Positions 1,685-14,501 of a DNA stretch of 64,000 nt are shown here, one piece after another; the stretch's first letter is position 1; each line of letters starts with the position of its first letter. The DNA lies in NCBI GenBank assembly GCA_944389065.1, contig CALXKZ010000023.1, positions 1-64,000 of the forward strand. Direction: 5' to 3'. The position numbers were made by a program, and so were the translations under genes. Source of the DNA: an uncultured Spirochaetaceae bacterium. Lineage in GTDB: Bacteria; Spirochaetota; Spirochaetia; Sphaerochaetales; Sphaerochaetaceae. The notes beneath the pieces are model-generated. The model was not told the origin of the DNA. It saw only the letters and a list, made by a program, of their open reading frames with translations, and made no database searches.

Positions 1685-1713
1685 TTGACCTTTGCCATTA
1701 AGGGGGGTAAAAT
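1685..1713 (+). promoter_or_regulatory. Promoter of the 1748 lipoprotein with G6 run against the -10 box
   Basis: TTGACC (1685-1690), a 17-base spacer and TAAAAT (1708-1713). The last six spacer bases are GGGGGG (1702-1707). Two more G runs lie upstream, at 1650-1654 and 1673-1678. A change in G-run length would alter the -35/-10 spacing directly. The rest of the 1414-1684 gap holds only AT-rich sequence. Confidence 0.7.
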
Positions 1714-1747
1714 CACATCAGAATCTTAAAAAAGAGGGTTGAGAGAT

Positions 1748-4306
1748 ATGGCAAGAAAATCAAGCATTTTTCTTACAGTCGGTCTTGTGTTGCTGGCTCT
1801 CCTGATGGGCTGCTCCAACGAGACAAAATATCCGGATGTCCCGTCTGATGTCGTAATCACACAGGCAACAGACTTCCTTGAAGGACAGACTTTCAATTCA
1901 TCGAATTTCACAGTGAGTGTGAAATATCTCTATTCAAATGGGTATAGAGATGTTCCAGCATCCATTCTGACATTCAATGATAATGACAAGAACGGAGTAG
2001 TGTCCTTCGGAGATACTGTCACAGCATCCGCTGGTACTGATCTGAATGGAAAGGCTGTTGAAAAGACAGCTGACATCAATGTTTATGCAATTGATTACAT
2101 TACTGCAGTTGCAACAGTTGAAGCATTTGCATGGAATGGTTCAGCTGCAACAATAGCTGTAACACCAGACCAGGTAGAGGTAACAGCACATTATGCAGGT
2201 GATCAGACTCTTGTTCTTACAAGCACTGATTATTCTGCTGGTCCGATTGCAATCGATGTTGATAAAAACAAGGATAACGAGACATTTGAATCGAATTTCC
2301 GCGTTACACTTGCTGAGAGCCTTGCAGCGAAAGGAACAGTAGGTTCGGAATATCTTGTACCTGTTGTTGTTTCCCAGTCAATTTCCTCAGAGCTTGAGGA
2401 AGTACAGAGCGTAACAGGCTTTGCAACAAATACATATAATATTCCAAAGTTCGATTATGCTGATGCCGATGATCTTGCTTCATATCTTGATGCATCAAAG
2501 ATCAAGGTCAATGCTACTGGAATTGATAACCTTGGTAAGAAGACAACAAAGTCAGTTACTGCAGATACAATCGAAGGACTTGAGCTTTCATTTGTTAATG
2601 CTGAGACTGGCCTTGCACTTACAGATTTTGATTCCCTGAAGTATGCAACAGGATCAAATTTCACAGGTCTTGCTATCACTGGTACATTTAACGATGCTCC
2701 TGTTAATGGTAAAGTAACAGTAGGTTTGTATCAGGATACGGCTCTTAAGGTACAGTACAATGGTGAAGGCATTGTAATTGGAACAAAGAATACAGATCTT
2801 GATCTTAATGATTTCCGTGTACTCCTTACTGTAAATGGAGAAACATCGGATATTACTGATGAAGTATCAGCAGAAGATTTCTATTTTGCTACATCTAACA
2901 AAGATGATACAGACAAAACTGTTGTAAATGATACTTATTCCTATGTTGGAGTAAAGTACAAGGGTGCAGATACTGCCGCTGCTGGACTGGCATCTATCAC
3001 AACAAAATCTCAGTATGTTGATTACACACTTGGAAGCATGACAATTACTCTTGATGAGGATTTTGCTCTTAATCCGCAGTACTATCCAGAAGGAAAGGTA
3101 CTTGATCTTGTTAAGGGTGCAATCACATCAATAAAGGTAACAAAGACAGCCGCTGACAAGTCAACATCTGAAGTTGTTATCGATGTAAATGATCCTAACC
3201 TTACATTGACTCTTACAACAGATGGTATTAATGCATATGATTATGAGAAGGCTGTTTCTACAATTAAGTTGGGAGCATCCTATGAATATGGTGCAGAAGA
3301 TACTGTAAATCTGATGACACCTGTTGATGTTACTGTAGCATCTACAGCAACAATCACATCTGTTGTTCTTGAACCAGAGTATGAAGCAAATCCTGCAATT
3401 GGCGATCCTATTACATGGAAGGTCACAGTAAACGGAACAGATGGTGGCTGGGTACTCCAGGAGACAACACTTGATGTAAAGAACAAATCAGTAGGTAGTC
3501 TTGCTGTACGTTATTTCATTGATGGTGTTGAGTATAAAACAGCTACATTCGGTGGTACATCAAAGACTTATATTCCAACAACAATTGGTGAGACAGCAGT
3601 CGAGAATATCATCGTAAAGGTTGGTGACGTTAACTCTGAGGCCGTTGATCTTGTTGCTGGTAGATGGTATGTCGCACCGACAATTTCTTCTCTTGTTGCA
3701 GAGGTAACAGATGAGTATGCCGCTAAGGCTTACATTGACAGTGAAATAAGTGTTAATGTAAATGATTATGCTCTTACTGAAGAATCCATAAAGAAAGCAT
3801 TTGGAGTATCCAATATCGAGGATATTCCTGCACAGTATCTGCCGAAGATTGTTGAGATAATCCCAGCAGTAGATGGTGCAAAGGTTGTTTCTGGTGATAA
3901 TGCTAACTCTGTTAATGTTGTTGTAACCTATGTTGATAAGAGCGGTGCAACACAGAGAGAAACACTGACAAATGCAGTTGCATTTACTGGTAAAGCATGG
4001 ACCGATAACTCTGGCGCTTATCTGACACTTGAAGACGAAAAGATCGAGAATAACCAGCTTGAAGCAGGTGCTCATCCTTATGATTTTGATATAGCCGGCC
4101 TAGTTGATTATGGTACAGTAACAGCAGGAAAATTGATTGGTTATGTTAAGGGAACAACCTGGAATGGTGAGGTTTCTTCTCTTACTACTTCTGCTACAAA
4201 CTTCAGTGTACTTGAAGGTGAAAGCTATACTTTTGTTTATTCTTACGATGGAAAGACCGCGGAGTATGGCACAATAACAATAAATGTTGTTGCACCTGCA
4301 AACTGA
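1748..4306 (+). CDS. Large surface lipoprotein with Ig-like repeats
   Basis: 852 residues from ATG 1748, chosen because it begins a clean lipoprotein signal (MARKSSIFLTVGLVLLALLM then G-C). The TTG at 1739 is less likely. The mature N-terminus is an Ig-like repeat (ITQATDFLEGQTFNSSNF to GTDLNGKAVE) containing a 12-residue loop D-x-D-x-N-G-x-V-x-x-x-D encoded at 1979-2014, like an EF-hand or dockerin calcium site. Several further beta-rich domains follow, and no transmembrane segment. It is homologous along its length to the product of 12024; shared landmarks include IPKF(D/N)YA and DDFRV/NDFRV followed by LTV. Probably anchored in the outer membrane and exposed; the ligand is unknown. Its promoter contains a G6 run. 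Confidence 0.85.
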   Translation: MARKSSIFLTVGLVLLALLMGCSNETKYPDVPSDVVITQATDFLEGQTFNSSNFTVSVKYLYSNGYRDVPASILTFNDNDKNGVVSFGDTVTASAGTDLNGKAVEKTADINVYAIDYITAVATVEAFAWNGSAATIAVTPDQVEVTAHYAGDQTLVLTSTDYSAGPIAIDVDKNKDNETFESNFRVTLAESLAAKGTVGSEYLVPVVVSQSISSELEEVQSVTGFATNTYNIPKFDYADADDLASYLDASKIKVNATGIDNLGKKTTKSVTADTIEGLELSFVNAETGLALTDFDSLKYATGSNFTGLAITGTFNDAPVNGKVTVGLYQDTALKVQYNGEGIVIGTKNTDLDLNDFRVLLTVNGETSDITDEVSAEDFYFATSNKDDTDKTVVNDTYSYVGVKYKGADTAAAGLASITTKSQYVDYTLGSMTITLDEDFALNPQYYPEGKVLDLVKGAITSIKVTKTAADKSTSEVVIDVNDPNLTLTLTTDGINAYDYEKAVSTIKLGASYEYGAEDTVNLMTPVDVTVASTATITSVVLEPEYEANPAIGDPITWKVTVNGTDGGWVLQETTLDVKNKSVGSLAVRYFIDGVEYKTATFGGTSKTYIPTTIGETAVENIIVKVGDVNSEAVDLVAGRWYVAPTISSLVAEVTDEYAAKAYIDSEISVNVNDYALTEESIKKAFGVSNIEDIPAQYLPKIVEIIPAVDGAKVVSGDNANSVNVVVTYVDKSGATQRETLTNAVAFTGKAWTDNSGAYLTLEDEKIENNQLEAGAHPYDFDIAGLVDYGTVTAGKLIGYVKGTTWNGEVSSLTTSATNFSVLEGESYTFVYSYDGKTAEYGTITINVVAPAN

Positions 4307-5637: not shown

Positions 5638-6195
5638 TCAGCCAATCTCATTTGTGTCGAAGGAGTAGGGCACATTGTTGATTTTAACAGTGCCTGCAAC
5701 TTCGTCCATTGTTCCTTCGATATCGAAGACGTAATCATAGATTCTGATTCTTCCATCTGCTGTCATCTTCGGTTCAGTGGAGTCTGTCTCATCAACTCTG
5801 AACAATCCCCAGTATGCTACAGGGAAATCGACATTGGAAAGCTCTTCGCCTGAAAGCGTATAGTCCTTTCCGTATTCGATTTTCTGAGGATCGAAGGTAT
5901 CCTGTCCGATAGCAAAGACCATAGCAAGAAGCGTTCCGGCAGCATTTTCCTTTGGAATGGAAGAGCCCTGGCTCATGATGCTGTAGAATTCATCGAAGTC
6001 ACCATTCAACGCGGGCATCTCAGTATCTGTTCCAGGGTTTTCAGGTGTATCAGGATCACTTGGATCAGTGACTGGTTCCTCTGTTCCTGTTCCCGGGTTC
6101 TCTCCCTGGTCTGTTCCTGCATTTGGGCTGCAGGCAACGGCGAAGATTGCGATAAGTGCAATCACAAAAAGCATGCGCAGTTTCTTAAGCAACAT
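5638..6195 (-). CDS. Small lipoprotein with acidic Pro/Thr linker
   Basis: 185 residues from ATG 6195, five bases after GGAGG; the frame extends further upstream without another good start. The signal peptide ends in AVAC. A ~40-residue low-complexity linker rich in Pro, Thr, Glu, Asp and Gly (GTGTEEPVTDPSDPDTPENP) lifts a compact C-terminal domain of ~130 residues. I recognise no family. It lies downstream of the BspA-like gene on the same strand, separated by ~90 bases. Confidence 0.8.
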   Translation of the reverse strand: MLLKKLRMLFVIALIAIFAVACSPNAGTDQGENPGTGTEEPVTDPSDPDTPENPGTDTEMPALNGDFDEFYSIMSQGSSIPKENAAGTLLAMVFAIGQDTFDPQKIEYGKDYTLSGEELSNVDFPVAYWGLFRVDETDSTEPKMTADGRIRIYDYVFDIEGTMDEVAGTVKINNVPYSFDTNEIG

Positions 6196-6288
6196 GTTTT
6201 CCTCCAATGTTTGTTTTCTGATGTTGATGATAATGAGTTAATCAAATTAATGGAATGGCCATAAGCGAGTGCCTATGGCCAAGTGTGG

Positions 6289-8254
6289 TTACTGCTGGTT
6301 TTCAGTAATTGTTCCATCAGTGCATTTGACTGAAATAGGGTAGTTGCAGCCCCGGAATGCAAAGCCAAGTGCTTTCCACTCTTCTATTGTTCCACCGTAG
6401 GTTATATTCTGCAGATTATAGCAGTCGATGAATACATCATTGCCTGCATATGTAAGGGATGCAGGTATTGTTATTGATATAAGATTGTTGCAGCCAGAAA
6501 ATGCTTCATTCTCGATCGTTGTTACGCCCTCTGGGAGAACAATGCTGTCAAAATATGCATTTCTGAATGCCTCTTCGCCTATTGTCGTCAATGTCGAAGG
6601 GAATGATATCGAATCAATAACCTGCGTAAAGAAAACAGAATCTCCAAGTCTTGTAACGCCTTCAGGAACAACGATGTCCGTTATTTCTTCGTCCCAGATG
6701 AACAATGTCGTTCCATAGTCGCTGAGGAAAGAATTCCCAGAGCCTTCAATCCAGGAATACTCCGATCCTTCTGCGAACTTTATATCGCCATCATAGCCAT
6801 CAAAGGTAGTATAGTCGAAATCCTCGATACTTGCAGGGAGAGTCACGGATTCAAGTGAAGTGCATCCTGAGAATACTTCGGAGTCAATCTCTATAGGACA
6901 TTCTTCGAAAACGACTGTCTTTAACGATGAACAGCCTTTGAATACGTATGATCTGATATATCTTGCATAAGAGGAAAAGCTTGCCTCTGTAAGAGAAGTA
7001 CAGCCCTCGAAAAGACTTTCTCCGATGAACTCTTCCTTTGCGTTCACTTCCGCAGAGACAAGATTCTTGCAGTTCTTGAATATACTGTAGGACATCTCAA
7101 GAACTGTAGAAGGAACCGTAACTTCAGTCAGACCTGCTCCTTCGAATGCGGATTCGCCGATATAATCAAGCGAGGAGGGGAACTCGATTGCTTTCAGAGC
7201 AGTGCATCCTGCGAATGCTCTGCTGTTTATGCTGTCAAGAAGAGCCGGGAACTTCACAGTCTCAAGAGAAGTACAGCCTTCGAAGAGCTGATTGCTGATC
7301 ATATCGAGACCGCTTGCGGAAAGATCCACACTCTTCAGACTTTTGCAGTCCTGGAATGTACCGGATGCGTCCTCGCTATAATAGTATGTACTCTTGACTG
7401 TGGAAGGCACCCTGATTGTCTCGATGCCTGTACCTGCAAGGAATCCAGGGGAAAGCGATCTCATCCAGCGTGGGAATTCAAATGCAGTAATATTCACGCA
7501 GTCCTTGAATGCGTTGTATCCGAAATTCAGTTCATCGGAGCGGTCTTCGAACTGGACAGATGAAAGTGCTGATCCAGCAAAGGCATTATTCCCTATATAT
7601 TCTATAGAAGCAGGAATATAAACACTGCTGATCTGGCTGCCTTTGAATGCATCATCCTCGACTCTGGTAACTGATGCGCTGAAATCTTTATCAGCTACAG
7701 AGAATGAGATGTTCTCAGGAATCTCCAGAAGCTCTGCTGATCCTGTGAAACCTATGATGCTGGCTTCATTGTCTATCACAAGGTATATGATTCCTTTCTC
7801 GTCCTGATACCTTCTGGAAGGGTTCAGCTCATCAACCTGTTCCATATAGTCATCCATTCCTTCGATATCAGCCATAGGGCCGCTGGTCCATCTGAAGAAG
7901 CCTGGATTGAACATGCTGACTGTGGATTTCCCTGAATATCCTTCAGGGCCGTCAGCAAACTGAAGATCGACTGTGTTGCCAGAGACACTGTATGTGCCTT
8001 TGTATTCGCTTGTTGTAGTTACAGTGCCATCAACAGCAGTGGCAGAAGCTGTTCCGAATGTGAAAGAACCATCGTCGGAGAATACGAACCAATATGTCTC
8101 GCTTTCATTCTCTGAGTTGTATGTCTGCCATGTCCCGATGATATCCTTGCTGAGATCACCTGTAGTCTCTATGCCCCCCATTGGGTGCACAGGAGACAGC
8201 AAGCAGAATGCAGGATATCAGAGCAAAAAGAATATGCATTCTATTTCTTTGCAT
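6289..8254 (-). CDS. BspA-like leucine-rich-repeat lipoprotein, frameshifted at a C6 run
   Basis: The body (open from 8202) begins with a small domain with GTWQTY and DDGSFTF, then many LRR_5/BspA repeats of the type AF-x-GC-x-x-L-x-x-(I/V)-x-(I/F)-P to the C-terminus. These are surface adhesion-type repeats. It has no signal peptide of its own. In another frame, ATG 8254, preceded by GGAGG, encodes a lipoprotein signal ending LLAVSC then APNGG. The two frames are separated only by the G6 run read on this strand (C 8174-8179). With six G, translation stops nine codons after the lipobox Cys; with five it would continue into the LRR body. It is either a phase-variable gene caught off, a decayed gene or a sequence error. 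Confidence 0.85.
8174..8179 (-). repeat. Homopolymer G6 run at the lipobox/body junction
   Basis: Six C on the plus strand, hence six G in the gene. The start codon (8254) and the body frame (8202) are 52 bases apart; losing one base gives 51 and restores one frame. Confidence 0.85.
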
Positions 8255-8370
8255 AAAAACCTCCAATGCTGGAGTCTATCAGAAACACTATGGAATATAA
8301 AGGTTTCGATGCTTTTCTTCCGGATTATATATCTGACCATTGAAGACTTGTGCCGTCAGAAATAGTTCTG

Positions 8371-8399
8371 TTGCATTGCTATTATATATGCAATATACT
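8371..8399 (+). promoter_or_regulatory. Toxin-antitoxin promoter with overlapping operator
   Basis: TTGCAT (8371-8376), 17 bases, TATACT (8394-8399) make a strong promoter. TTGCAT and ATGCAA (8388-8393) form an inverted repeat spanning the -35 box and spacer, the usual place for autorepression by a DinJ/RelB-type complex. Confidence 0.7.
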
Positions 8400-8418
8400 T
8401 CTATTAGAGGTGAAATAT

Positions 8419-8691
8419 ATGGCAGATACAACGAATTTCAGTTTACGCATAGATAATGATTTAAAAAAACAGAGTGAAGATATTTTTGCAGAACTTGGTA
8501 TGAATCTCACAACTGCGATAAATGTTTTTCTCCGTCAGGCTGTACGAGAAGGGGGATTCCCGTTCAAGGTCAGGCTGGATGTGCCAAATAAACGGACGAT
8601 AGCTGCTATGGAAGAAGCTCTTGCATTGATTGCTGAAAAGAATACAAAAAAGTATTCTGTCGAAGAAGCGCTGCAGGAACTGAAAAAATGA
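8419..8691 (+). CDS. Type II antitoxin, RelB/DinJ family
   Basis: 90 residues from ATG 8419, after an AGAGGTG ribosome-binding site. The N-terminus (NFSLRIDNDLKKQSEDIFAE) is the ribbon-helix-helix DNA-binding segment typical of RelB/DinJ, with the family's GMNLTTAINVFLRQAV. The C-terminal ~35 residues (ALIAEKNTKKYSVEEALQEL) would wrap the toxin. It overlaps the toxin gene by four bases (ATGA), so the two are translationally coupled. It is expected to neutralise the YafQ-type toxin and repress its own promoter through the inverted repeat just upstream. Confidence 0.9.
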   Translation: MADTTNFSLRIDNDLKKQSEDIFAELGMNLTTAINVFLRQAVREGGFPFKVRLDVPNKRTIAAMEEALALIAEKNTKKYSVEEALQELKK

Positions 8692-8963
8692 GTCTCAATG
8701 TAATATGGACCACTCAATTCAAGAAGGATTATAAGAAAGCTTCTAAACGCAACCTTCCGATTGGGCTTCTGGATGACATAATCTGGAAACTTGCGGCAGG
8801 AGAGAAACTGCCGGAGAAGAATAGGGATCATGCGCTTTCCGGTAACTGGGCAGAATTCCGGGAGTGTCATATTCTTCCTGACTGGCTTCTGATATATCGG
8901 ATTGAAGCTGATATTCTTGTGCTGACTTTGGCTAGAACAGGGACTCATGGGGATTTATTCTGA
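8688..8963 (+). CDS. Type II toxin, YafQ family mRNA interferase
   Basis: 91 residues. YafQ/RelE features: WTTQFKKDYKKASKR at the N-terminus, a central DHALSGNWAEFRECHILPDW core and the C-terminal TLARTGTHGDLF. The family's usual catalytic His residues have counterparts here in DHALSG, RECH and GTHGDLF. Such toxins cut ribosome-bound mRNA. Start and stop are intact and it follows its antitoxin with a four-base overlap, so the module appears complete. Confidence 0.9.
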   Translation: MSLNVIWTTQFKKDYKKASKRNLPIGLLDDIIWKLAAGEKLPEKNRDHALSGNWAEFRECHILPDWLLIYRIEADILVLTLARTGTHGDLF

Positions 8964-9784: not shown

Positions 9785-9800
9785 GGGGGGGGGGTAATCT
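9785..9800 (+). promoter_or_regulatory. G10 run abutting a -10 box upstream of the 9891 lipoprotein
   Basis: Ten consecutive G (9785-9794) followed immediately by TAATCT (9795-9800), the same arrangement as in front of genes 1748 and 12024. No convincing -35 hexamer is visible at the present spacing, which may mean the promoter is out of register in this state. The rest of the 9626-9890 gap shows nothing else. Confidence 0.55.
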
Positions 9801-9890: not shown

Positions 9891-11747
9891 ATGAAGAACA
9901 GGTATTTTCGCTTAATTGCTCTTATCTGCATCATCTGCCTTGCAGTCTCATGCACACAGAGGATCATGCATCTGCCAGACAGGAATCCTGGTGGATCTTC
10001 ATCCCCGATAGCCAGTGATATCAGTGCAACCTTCGGTGATATCAGCTGGGATGATCTGGTGGAGAAGGCTGTCAATCAGGCAGGCAAAGGCGAGAAGGAT
10101 GGTATGACATCAACTCTTGGTGCCGCTACTGCAGCAAGCAGCCGCAGCATCAATAGCCTTGTGCTTACAATAGTGTTCAATGGATACAAAGATGCATCGG
10201 GTGCGGTGATTGAATCTGGAACAGCTTCTTTCACCCTTGAATCAGAGAAGATCTCTGCTGGTACAATATATGCAGTCAGTTCCTATAAAGCAGAAACAGC
10301 AGGCTTATTGATTTCTCCTTCTTATTCAGCTTCTCCATCTGTCTCTGTCTCCTTCTCAATATCCGGAAAGGGATCGATGACAGTAAAAGAGACAGCTGGT
10401 GGTGCATTTGCTGCATCCAATGTTTCGCTGAGCATAATGACAGGATCCGGTACAATTTCAGCAAATGGGGAGAGAGATGAGCTTGATGATGTCTTCATCA
10501 ATGCAGATCCAGAGCCGGAGACAGGAAGCAGCGAGAAGCCATATATCATCAATGACTATCTTGATGTTCTTTCTATTTCCTACATGCTGACAGCAGAGCC
10601 GTTCTATGCAGAGCTCGGGGCTGATCTTGTGCTTCCAAATGCATGTCCGGTATATCTTCCTGAGAATACCGATCTTCATATCGATCTCCAGTCTTATGAT
10701 GTCTGGAAGAAGTTCAATGGAACTCCGGCAGGGGAGGGCTCTGATCAGAGAACATATGGCGACAGCAGTATTTTCCCGCTCATCCAGGTCAATGGTGGTA
10801 GCCTGGAAATCAAGGGAAATGGTTCCAATGTGATCGGTGGTTCTCTTTTTGAGAATCCAAATGCCAGGATAATCTATGTCAAGGATGGAGGTCACCTTGA
10901 TCTTGAAGGAGTAATCATACAGGCTTTCTCAAATACGGCAGGATCTGCTGTATATATCGAGAACAGCACTGCTGATATCAGAAACTGCGAGATCTATGGA
11001 ACCTATTTTGCATTAAGATCCTATCACGGATCCGAGGTAACAGTCAGGAATACAATCATAGCAAGCTGTGCAAGCAATCAGCTTGCATCGTATCCGGTAG
11101 ATAGCGAAGGCAATATCATATCAGGAAAATATGATTCTGGTTATGCATATGCTCTTGATTCGATAGGCGACAGCAATGATTTTGATGACATCGAAGTCTA
11201 TGGAATCCAGGGGGCAATCTCCATCTCCGGTGGCCGCTCTGAGCTTGGTCCTGGAATATATTCATATACAGGCCCAAAGGTTTTTGAGCATATGCCTGAG
11301 GAGTATCATGATTACTACATCAACTGGAGAAGTGCGTATGAACCTGATCACCAGGTTGCAGCCAATGAAATATGGAGCGCGCTATATGTTGCCGGAGAGA
11401 ATGCTGCAGTCAAAGCAGAGGTAAATGGTGGCACCTATATTACTGATGGATCCGGAAACCCAACTGTCCGTGTAGGCAATGCTGCTGATGGAGATGGAGG
11501 CCTTGGAAAGGAGGCTGCTACCGTCATAAACGATGGAACGTTCATAAACACATCAAGCGGAGTAGCTGTTGAAGTCTCAGGAGTCACTCCAGGAGAGTAC
11601 GGCTATGGTACGCTTAATATCAATGGTGGACGCTACATGGATAAAACAAGAGATCTTGGTACATTGCTTCCTGGTTTCATCAACAGCGATACACATGAAG
11701 TGATCGGTCCAGATGACGAAGGTTTCTATTCCGTTGTTCTAAAGTAA
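9891..11747 (+). CDS. Lipoprotein with C-terminal parallel beta-helix
   Basis: 618 residues from ATG 9891, after AAGGAAGG. The signal ends LAVSC. Residues ~40-200 form a Ser-rich beta domain with VFNGYKDASG and SGTASFTL, matching the N-terminal domains of the lipoproteins at 4664 and 57361. From ~220 to the end are short repeats such as VNGGSLEIKGNGS, VKDGGHLDLEG, AVYIENSTADIRNCEIYG, VNGGTYI and LNINGGRYMD, which is the pattern of right-handed beta-helix (pectin-lyase-like) surface proteins. It could bind or degrade polysaccharide, but no catalytic residues were identified. A G10 run stands in its promoter region, so expression may switch. Confidence 0.85.
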   Translation: MKNRYFRLIALICIICLAVSCTQRIMHLPDRNPGGSSSPIASDISATFGDISWDDLVEKAVNQAGKGEKDGMTSTLGAATAASSRSINSLVLTIVFNGYKDASGAVIESGTASFTLESEKISAGTIYAVSSYKAETAGLLISPSYSASPSVSVSFSISGKGSMTVKETAGGAFAASNVSLSIMTGSGTISANGERDELDDVFINADPEPETGSSEKPYIINDYLDVLSISYMLTAEPFYAELGADLVLPNACPVYLPENTDLHIDLQSYDVWKKFNGTPAGEGSDQRTYGDSSIFPLIQVNGGSLEIKGNGSNVIGGSLFENPNARIIYVKDGGHLDLEGVIIQAFSNTAGSAVYIENSTADIRNCEIYGTYFALRSYHGSEVTVRNTIIASCASNQLASYPVDSEGNIISGKYDSGYAYALDSIGDSNDFDDIEVYGIQGAISISGGRSELGPGIYSYTGPKVFEHMPEEYHDYYINWRSAYEPDHQVAANEIWSALYVAGENAAVKAEVNGGTYITDGSGNPTVRVGNAADGDGGLGKEAATVINDGTFINTSSGVAVEVSGVTPGEYGYGTLNINGGRYMDKTRDLGTLLPGFINSDTHEVIGPDDEGFYSVVLK

Positions 11748-11961: not shown

Positions 11962-11991
11962 TTGACAATTCATTCTCTTGGGGGGTACTCT
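11962..11991 (+). promoter_or_regulatory. Promoter of the 12024 lipoprotein with G6 run against the -10 box
   Basis: TTGACA (11962-11967), an 18-base spacer ending in GGGGGG (11980-11985), TACTCT (11986-11991). Loss of one G would give the optimal 17-base spacer. A C5 run lies at 11940-11944. The rest of the 11816-12023 gap is AT-rich with nothing recognised. Confidence 0.7.
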
Positions 11992-12023: not shown

Positions 12024-14501
12024 ATGAAAAGAACAAACATTCTTTTATCTGCAGCTCTTATTGTTGTAGCAATCCTTGCGGGTTGTACAGCAGAGGGCGC
12101 TTATCCAGCATTCCCACAGTCAGTGCTTCTGACACAGAAGGGTGATTTCATTAAGGGACAGGATTTCGATGCATCCAAGTTCGAGGTTCTTGTAACATAT
12201 CTTGATGGATCATCCAGAGTGGTTAAAGATGCTATCCTGACTACAGGTGTGGATACAACAAAGGGCGTACAGGGTGGTGAATCTGTAAGCGTTAATGTCG
12301 GTACAGATTACAATGGTGAAGCTGTAACGTATTCCGGTGAGATTTCAAAGGTATATACCATTGATTACATCACTGCTATAACAAAGGAAACATCTTTTGC
12401 AGTAGAAGATGATGGTTCAGCTACTCCAAATCCGGAGCTTTTCACCGTTACTGCATATTACAATGGAACAAAGTCTGTTGTTCTTGGTGCAAATAATTAT
12501 TATGTTACAGTCACTGCTGATAAGTCCGTCGAGAATTATGGCGAAGCAACTGAAGTTCCTGCAACAGCTACTGTTTGGCTGAAGGGAAATCTTGCAGCAG
12601 CTAATGATTGGAAGTCTTGTACTGTCACAGGTCTGACAGCAACTAAGGATTCTGTTGCTCCTACAACTGTTAAGGAACTTACTGGAATAAGCTCAACTGA
12701 CATGGCAATTCCAAAATTCAATTATGCTTCTGTAGCTGATCTTCCTGCAATTGAGGACTATTATGGAGATATCGTTCTTTCTTATAAGGATTCAAACAAT
12801 ATTTCTCAGACAAAGAAGGCTGATCTGATAGCAAATGATTTCGATATCATCTATACAAATCAGTATGGTGAAGAGCTGACAGATAAGATTGTTTCTCTTG
12901 ATTTCGCAGGAGCAGAAGGTGAAGATCAGACTTCCGTTTATATTCAGCTTGTTGTAGATGGTGAGAATGTAGGCGAGCCTAAGGCTGTTAAGCTTGCAGA
13001 TACATCTATCGTAGTCTACTACGACGGTAATGGTTACCCTGCTAACACTGAGTATGAGGATATCAACCTCAATGTTGATGATTTCCGTGTATATCTTACT
13101 GTTGGAGAGGAAACAACCAATATTAGCGCTGAGATAACTGAAAAGGATCTTTTCTGGGCTGCTTATTCAGAAGGAATTACTGCAGATACAACAAATACTG
13201 CTATGCCTTCGTATGAAGAGGGTCAGAAGAATGGTCGTTATGTAAGTGTAAATTACAATGGTGTTACTGATGTAACTAATGCTGTTGTCCTTTCTCAGAA
13301 AGCTATTGCTTCAATTTCAACTGTTACATTTGATGTTACTGACGTAACAGGACCTGCAAAGCAGTATCTCAATGCTGTTCCTGCTGTTGATGTTTCTCAG
13401 ATTAAGGAGTTCAAGGTCACAATGAGTGATAGTTCTACTTCTACTCTGACAGCAGCTGATTTTGAGTGGGCTTTCTATACGGAAGCTAATGATGCAACAA
13501 GCAAGCTTGCACTTGTAGAGGGTGAAGTTGATCTTTCAAATGTTTCCGAGCTATATGTTGGAGCAACATATAACAAGGTAACATACTACAGCTCAACAAC
13601 TGTAAAAACTGTCACATCTGTTGTTGCCACTGGCCTTGAGCTTAGTGCTTCTTATGGTGATGTTGCTCTTTATGGTGAATCAATCGAATGGACAATCAAT
13701 CTTGTAAATGACAATGGAACAGTACAGAAGAATGTAACTGGCTATACTCCATATGTTGTAGTAGGTTCTGAGTCTACAAAGATTGCAGCTCTTCCTGATG
13801 AACTTGGAACAGCTGGAAGCTATAAGGTAGCATACGTTTACAATGATTCTCTTCTTGAGTCTAACGTTGTAGAGATTCCTGCTGGTACAAGCTATTTCAA
13901 CGAGATAACGGCAACTGATCTCAAAGTTGAATATAAGGGTGAAAAGCTTTATATCAGTGAGCAGCTCAGTTCTGTTTCAGCAAGTGATTTTGAAGTAACA
14001 ACAACTTCTAGTAAGTATGTTGGTGAAGGAGAAGCACCTAAGCTTACTGTTGCTAACATTCAGCTTGTTTCTGGTGAGACAATCGATGCAACTAACAAGA
14101 TTCTTGTGACTGTCAAGTATGTTGGTTCAGATCTTAAAGAGCATTCAGTTGTTAAGGAAGTTTCACTTACAGGAACTTCATGGGTTGAGGGAACTCCAGC
14201 CCTGAAGCTTGGTGATGTGGTTGTTACAGGAAAGACAGCAGAGACAGCTACTGAAGTTATAGCCAATACTTATACTTTTGATGCTAAGAAAGATGGCCTT
14301 GAGGCTCATGGAACTGGTGTTGGTCCTACTTATAGTGTGACAAATGTTAGCGGTACCGCTAGTGGAACTGGTTCAACTCTGACTATTGCTGCTGATGGTG
14401 TTGCAAAAGTTACAATTACTTACACTAATAAGGAAAAAGAGCAGGTTGTAGAGTTCTTTGTAAAGGGTGTAGCTGCTCCTGAAGAAGAGCCAACTACCTA
14501 A
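12024..14501 (+). CDS. Large surface lipoprotein, paralogue of the 1748 product
   Basis: 825 residues from ATG 12024, after AGAGGATTGAG. The signal peptide ends VAILAGC. The first Ig-like repeat (LLTQKGDFIKGQDFDASKF) corresponds to that of the 1748 product, but the calcium-type loop is lost here (TTGVDTTKGVQGGESV). Homology continues along the length (AIPKFNYASV, NVDDFRVYLTV, ending in beta-rich repeats). There is no membrane segment apart from the lipid anchor. Two such paralogues about 10 kb apart, each behind a G-run promoter, suggest alternative surface antigens. The ligand is unknown. Confidence 0.85.
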   Translation: MKRTNILLSAALIVVAILAGCTAEGAYPAFPQSVLLTQKGDFIKGQDFDASKFEVLVTYLDGSSRVVKDAILTTGVDTTKGVQGGESVSVNVGTDYNGEAVTYSGEISKVYTIDYITAITKETSFAVEDDGSATPNPELFTVTAYYNGTKSVVLGANNYYVTVTADKSVENYGEATEVPATATVWLKGNLAAANDWKSCTVTGLTATKDSVAPTTVKELTGISSTDMAIPKFNYASVADLPAIEDYYGDIVLSYKDSNNISQTKKADLIANDFDIIYTNQYGEELTDKIVSLDFAGAEGEDQTSVYIQLVVDGENVGEPKAVKLADTSIVVYYDGNGYPANTEYEDINLNVDDFRVYLTVGEETTNISAEITEKDLFWAAYSEGITADTTNTAMPSYEEGQKNGRYVSVNYNGVTDVTNAVVLSQKAIASISTVTFDVTDVTGPAKQYLNAVPAVDVSQIKEFKVTMSDSSTSTLTAADFEWAFYTEANDATSKLALVEGEVDLSNVSELYVGATYNKVTYYSSTTVKTVTSVVATGLELSASYGDVALYGESIEWTINLVNDNGTVQKNVTGYTPYVVVGSESTKIAALPDELGTAGSYKVAYVYNDSLLESNVVEIPAGTSYFNEITATDLKVEYKGEKLYISEQLSSVSASDFEVTTTSSKYVGEGEAPKLTVANIQLVSGETIDATNKILVTVKYVGSDLKEHSVVKEVSLTGTSWVEGTPALKLGDVVVTGKTAETATEVIANTYTFDAKKDGLEAHGTGVGPTYSVTNVSGTASGTGSTLTIAADGVAKVTITYTNKEKEQVVEFFVKGVAAPEEEPTT

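Follow-up and report, generated by a model that had tools for sequence, protein, structure and literature searches.

The window, the whole stretch of 64,000 nucleotides that was analyzed, carries on its minus strand a gene that is divided between two reading frames. The frame of a signal peptide and that of an LRR body lie one position apart and meet at a run of six G residues. The features of the locus, together with the gene downstream of it, are as follows.

8273..8301, minus strand: putative weak promoter TTTATA-17-TAGACT, without a G tract; it agrees with the consensus at 8 of 12 positions and lies under the scan threshold
8260..8264, minus strand: ribosome-binding site (RBS) GGAGG, read from the sequence, 5 nt 5' of the ATG at 8254
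8156..8254, minus strand: signal-peptide open reading frame MQRNRMHILFALISCILLAVSC-APNGGHRDYR, 32 aa, with its stop at 8156, shortly after the G6 run
8174..8179, minus strand: G6 run (C on the plus strand) where the two frames meet; it begins 12 nt past the first base of the lipobox Cys codon
6289..8202, minus strand: BspA-type LRR body with an intact open frame of 637 aa and a weak lipocalin-like N-terminal stretch
5638..6207, minus strand: downstream lipoprotein (CSPNAG...), homologous to a lipoprotein with a G9 run on contig C57 of the same genome (E = 2e-6, 21% over 126 aa)

Signal peptide and repeat body

The start region on the minus strand reads GGAGG-TTTTT-ATG, with the ATG at 8254. 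Codons 20 to 22 form the lipobox Val-Ser-Cys (Cys codon 8191-8189, minus strand), and Ala-Pro-Asn follows. Judged by rule rather than by a trained predictor, MQRNRMHILFALISCILLAVSC has the basic n-region, the hydrophobic core and the lipobox Cys of a bacterial lipoprotein. A first-pass annotation of this DNA had placed the ATG, the RBS and the lipobox at these positions and in these frames, and re-reading of the sequence bore this out. It had also described an LRR body open from 8202 in a frame other than that of the signal peptide, with the G6 run at 8174-8179 between them; each of these points was verified.

The body matched the Pfam family PF13306 (LRR_5) with an E value of 9.7e-84 and 278 bits, far above the gathering cutoff of 27.7, and therefore belongs to the BspA type. 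In the assembled allele, the export signal is not in frame with the LRR repeats. An internal ATG at 8181 has no RBS 5' of it, and neither the sequence nor the promoter scan revealed a G tract in the -35/-10 spacer of the focal promoter region. The run lies at the frame junction near the 5' end of the gene, where a change in its length would switch the frame, as is typical of contingency genes. The product of the gene, which belongs to an uncultured gut spirochaete, is probably a BspA-type LRR lipoprotein anchored at the surface, with surface exposure predicted. A RelB/YafQ-type toxin-antitoxin pair (window positions 8350-8963) is located divergently from it.

No orthologue of the focal gene was found in 60 relatives, in genome_contigs or in viral_contigs; the best matches had approximately 31 to 39% identity and covered the LRR region only. 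A DNA pattern in which the run length could vary yielded no match in viral_contigs.

The G6 run and the frame break within the genome

The length of the run and the break between the frames were compared with sampled stretches of about 1.24 Mb from three genomes, window included, of which 446 kb came from the focal gene's own genome (G000). Within the window, 10 G/C runs of at least six bases were observed, and about 8.6 are expected from dinucleotides. In the own-genome sample, G/C runs of five bases numbered 145 and those of six bases 33; no run had seven or eight bases, a single one had nine and two had ten. Of the 33 six-base runs, 26 were situated inside intact open reading frames. By itself, G6 is thus a background length class in this genome and is not above chance. 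In a contingency gene, the tract is expected to rise above background, for G/C at about 7 or more bases; the focal tract, with six, is shorter.

Unlike the run itself, the mismatch between signal peptide and body is unusual. Among 21 ATG-started lipoprotein-like open reading frames in the own-genome sample, 18 were intact and three showed such a mismatch; by the same rule, none was detected in the samples of two relatives. In each of the three, the break lies no more than a few codons past the lipobox Cys: at G6 in the focal gene, at G9 in the gene on contig C57 and at GAGGGAGGG, without a homopolymer, in the third, an LRR paralogue on contig C7 (G000:C7 about 13774, minus strand). The body is in the same relative frame in all three. 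In the C7 paralogue, the signal-peptide frame stops at a TGA directly 3' of GGA GGG.

Since the C7 paralogue has its frame break at this position too, and has no homopolymer there, the break in the focal gene can be explained without any run. The main rival to a switching history is a plain frameshift pseudogene, in which glycine codons of an ordinary lipoprotein gene formed a short G run by chance, a single indel occurred and the gene will decay. Chance indels usually fall in short runs, and the G6 length is common in this genome. However, the LRR body carries no second lesion across 622 codons, the other in-gene G6 runs are intact, and the break coincides exactly with the position where the genus places its switch tracts (see below). 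We consider the pseudogene rather unlikely.

An error in assembly or consensus would leave the real gene in frame. The source genome is a metagenome-assembled genome of 92 contigs, 87% complete and 5.7% contaminated, so that errors of this kind are conceivable. Yet most G6 runs of the sample sit in intact open reading frames, and the few lipoprotein mismatches all fall at a single position. Contig names of the relatives follow the MEGAHIT/SPAdes style of short-read assemblies, and such assemblies seldom err at six bases. This explanation is very unlikely in our view.

Long tracts behind signal peptides and in promoter spacers of the genus

Across 48 genomes, the pattern Cys-x-Pro-Asn followed by G6 or longer occurred five times, whereas the reversed-pattern control did not occur at all. 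The run has six bases in the focal gene and 9, 10, 9 and 8 in the others, and one of the five genes is in frame. Four other lipoproteins thus have G8-G10 runs at the same offset from the Cys codon as the focal G6. Three of these genes are orthologous and syntenic, lie divergently from groEL and carry G10 (OFF), G9 (OFF) and G8 (ON). They were found only in genomes G009, G069 and G023; the possibility that this groEL-linked lipoprotein is shared throughout the genus was rejected, as it was absent at all 30 other groEL loci checked. The C57 lipoprotein of the own genome has its G9 run past the lipobox and is out of frame.

Less strict patterns and an inspection of LRR loci brought up further tracts directly past a signal peptide in other genomes: G8 in G063 (ON), G9 (ON) and G8 (OFF) in two genes of G068, G8 in a sugar-binding-type transporter protein of G007 (ON; its signal is not of the lipoprotein type) and C8 in a BspA-type LRR lipoprotein of G019 (OFF). 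In total, nine genes other than the focal one have a long tract (G8-G10 or C8) in this position; four of these genes are ON and five are OFF. Because the search patterns took in only part of the possible lipobox codons, additional tracts of the class may exist. Three matches (L344, L348 and L349) were discarded, not being behind any signal peptide. The C-run matches (TACCCCCCCCC) appear from their sequence to be poly-G promoters read from the opposite strand. A run does not always accompany Cys-x-Pro-Asn-Gly-Gly; in the C57 orthologue of G019, which is in frame, GGTGGC takes the place of a run.

These tracts show that, in this genus, homopolymers of varying length do occupy the spot just past the lipobox. 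The first-pass annotation had read the focal locus as a phase-variable switch. As to position, this agrees with the practice of the genus; as to length, it does not, since the focal tract is of background size and the others have at least eight bases. An active switch that toggles at contingency-locus rates would account for the position and the architecture, which match those of the genus tracts, and strains of Neisseria meningitidis have been reported to alternate between C5 and C6 at one coding tract (PMC5084427). On the other hand, tract instability rises with length (PMC5084427), intragenic G tracts of Campylobacter jejuni are mainly G9 and G10 (PMC8355987), all other switch tracts in the genus are longer, and G6 runs in the own genome lie mostly within intact genes. 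An active high-rate switch is quite unlikely here.

The groEL-linked trio also bears on the possibility of leaky expression, in which slippage during translation or transcription of the G run, or else an internal start, would yield low levels of the body and the mismatch would keep expression low. The shared relative frame of the three mismatched genes and the TGA directly after GGA GGG in the C7 gene would fit such a mechanism. The orthologues, however, occupy three frames at G8, G9 and G10, as expected of tracts that vary in length rather than of a single programmed shift, and a product from the ATG at 8181, besides having no RBS, would be devoid of a signal peptide. We consider leaky expression highly improbable. 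Programmed ribosomal frameshifting as the main reading was rejected because the frame of these orthologues differs with run length.

A second class of tracts was found in promoters. Two or three G-tract promoters are present within the window.

1685..1713, plus strand: promoter TTGACC-17-TAAAAT with G6 (1702-1707) abutting the -10 element, 5' of a large lipoprotein (1739-4306)
9785..9800, plus strand: G10 tract (9785-9794) followed by TAATCT, with no clear -35 element, about 90 nt 5' of a lipoprotein (9891-11747)
11962..11991, plus strand: promoter TTGACA-18-TACTCT with G6 (11980-11985) abutting the -10 element, 5' of a large lipoprotein (12024-14501)

The lipoprotein at 9891-11747 gave a weak beta-helix match. 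Those at 1739-4306 and 12024-14501 have no Pfam match and resemble poly-G-promoter lipoproteins on contigs C37, C44, C49 and C81.

Genus-wide, the pattern TTGAC-N(7-16)-G7-TANNNT gave 252 matches in 36 of the 48 genomes, with up to 14 per genome, and its reversed form gave none in any genome. The spacer promoters of the genus carry G7-G12. When 30 sites were inspected, one per genome, 24 preceded a lipoprotein by a simple rule and one more did so by eye; two ran off the contig. Among 106 listed sites, G9 was the most frequent tract length (58 sites), followed by G8 and G10 (18 each), and the commonest spacer was 19. Paralogous promoters that share their flanking sequence within a genome have unequal numbers of G residues, for example 12 versus 9 in the own genome. 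Taken together, the genome context appears to be of the phase-variable type, and switching is what we infer from these tract lengths.

Several related observations were made. The lipoprotein start and the flanks of its promoter are the same at two contig ends of G000, L044 (C37) and L051 (C49), where the tracts are G12 and G9; the near-identical copies of a multigene family on these C37 and C49 ends differ in tract length. An in-frame G10 within the n-region of a lipoprotein signal peptide (L048, G000:C38:7933) shows that long tracts also occur at a third kind of position. At L040 (G000:C1:19338), G9 lies immediately 5' of the start of a purD-like gene, which encodes a nonsurface protein. Poly-G spacer promoters are also numerous in some other Spirochaetia (family f24, genera g66 and g24), where most of the spacers are shorter, about 13 to 17 nt.

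Proposed reading and comparison with known systems

The reading that we tentatively prefer, with nearly even confidence, is that the focal locus represents a contracted or nearly locked contingency locus in the OFF register, with a short and slow tract. In such a locus, the G tract just behind the lipid-anchored Cys would join the signal peptide to the LRR body, and the same architecture was found with G8-G10 or C8 at other loci of the genus. At the longer tracts, slipped-strand mispairing at replication would alter the length and hence the frame. The assembled focal allele would be OFF; as the signal-peptide frame ends a few codons past the run, the cell is predicted to make a lipopeptide of roughly 10 residues and no LRR protein. 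With only six bases, and with instability rising with tract length, switching at the focal tract would be slow. The locus may switch on occasion, and its tract may once have been longer. Since six G residues are an ordinary length in this genome, a slow or frozen switch is more likely than an active one for the focal copy.

For the genus, we think it likely that this group of gut spirochaetes would switch much of its surface lipoproteins at two levels, by poly-G tracts in promoter spacers and by G or C tracts just past the lipobox, with the focal LRR lipoprotein as a slow member. Both kinds of tract, in promoters and past the lipobox, are seen directly in the sequence; the switching is inferred from them. 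This genus-wide set is of more interest than the focal gene, by itself a modest finding; the focal locus is mainly valuable as a test of the shortest tract that can still switch.

Phase-variable BspA-like proteins, adhesin switching by homopolymers at the 5' end and poly-G promoters are already known. A search of mainly open-access literature returned no title or abstract on such switching in gut spirochaetes. "Candidatus Mycoplasma girerdii" has, like the focal locus, BspA-like LRR surface proteins; these are switched by repeat-length frameshifts, and the main allele is often OFF (PMC5476646). Its repeats are mainly dinucleotides and their length variants were measured at read level, whereas the focal tract is a G6 read from an assembly. 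Among BspA-type LRR proteins (PF13306), the focal body is a strong match that differs in being preceded by a lipoprotein signal peptide in another frame. The vaa adhesin of Mycoplasma hominis is also a surface gene with a homopolymer in its 5' coding end, and it is OFF when out of frame (PMC524362); that tract, however, is poly-A with 8 bases when ON and is reported to switch at a rate of 1e-3 to 1e-4, while ours is G6 in another phylum. The poly-G/C contingency genes of C. jejuni (PMC8355987) share intragenic frameshift switching, and their usual G9-G10 length resembles that of the long tracts of the genus; the focal tract is shorter.

The closest spirochaete parallel is Treponema pallidum, in which TP0126 and tpr genes for outer membrane proteins have poly-G promoters (PMC7864442). 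In TP0126, the poly-G lies between the -35 and -10 elements, the same anatomy as in the neighboring lipoprotein promoters and the genus-wide set, and a 17-nt spacer is optimal (PMC7864442). Such a spacer tract is lacking at the focal gene and is present at its neighbors (G6 at 1702 and 11980) and, as G7-G12, throughout the genus. T. pallidum switches at the promoter, whereas in the focal gene the run is part of the coding sequence and the promoter is without a G tract. The genus also differs from T. pallidum in that its genes are those of lipoproteins of uncultured gut spirochaetes and in that the tract directly abuts the -10 element. Among spirochaetes, poly-G-based phase variation of surface proteins is best documented for the syphilis treponeme. 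If the genus-wide reading is true, such phase variation would also be one of the main ways in which the surface is controlled in gut spirochaetes that only metagenomes have revealed so far, and it would be measurable directly in existing metagenome reads.
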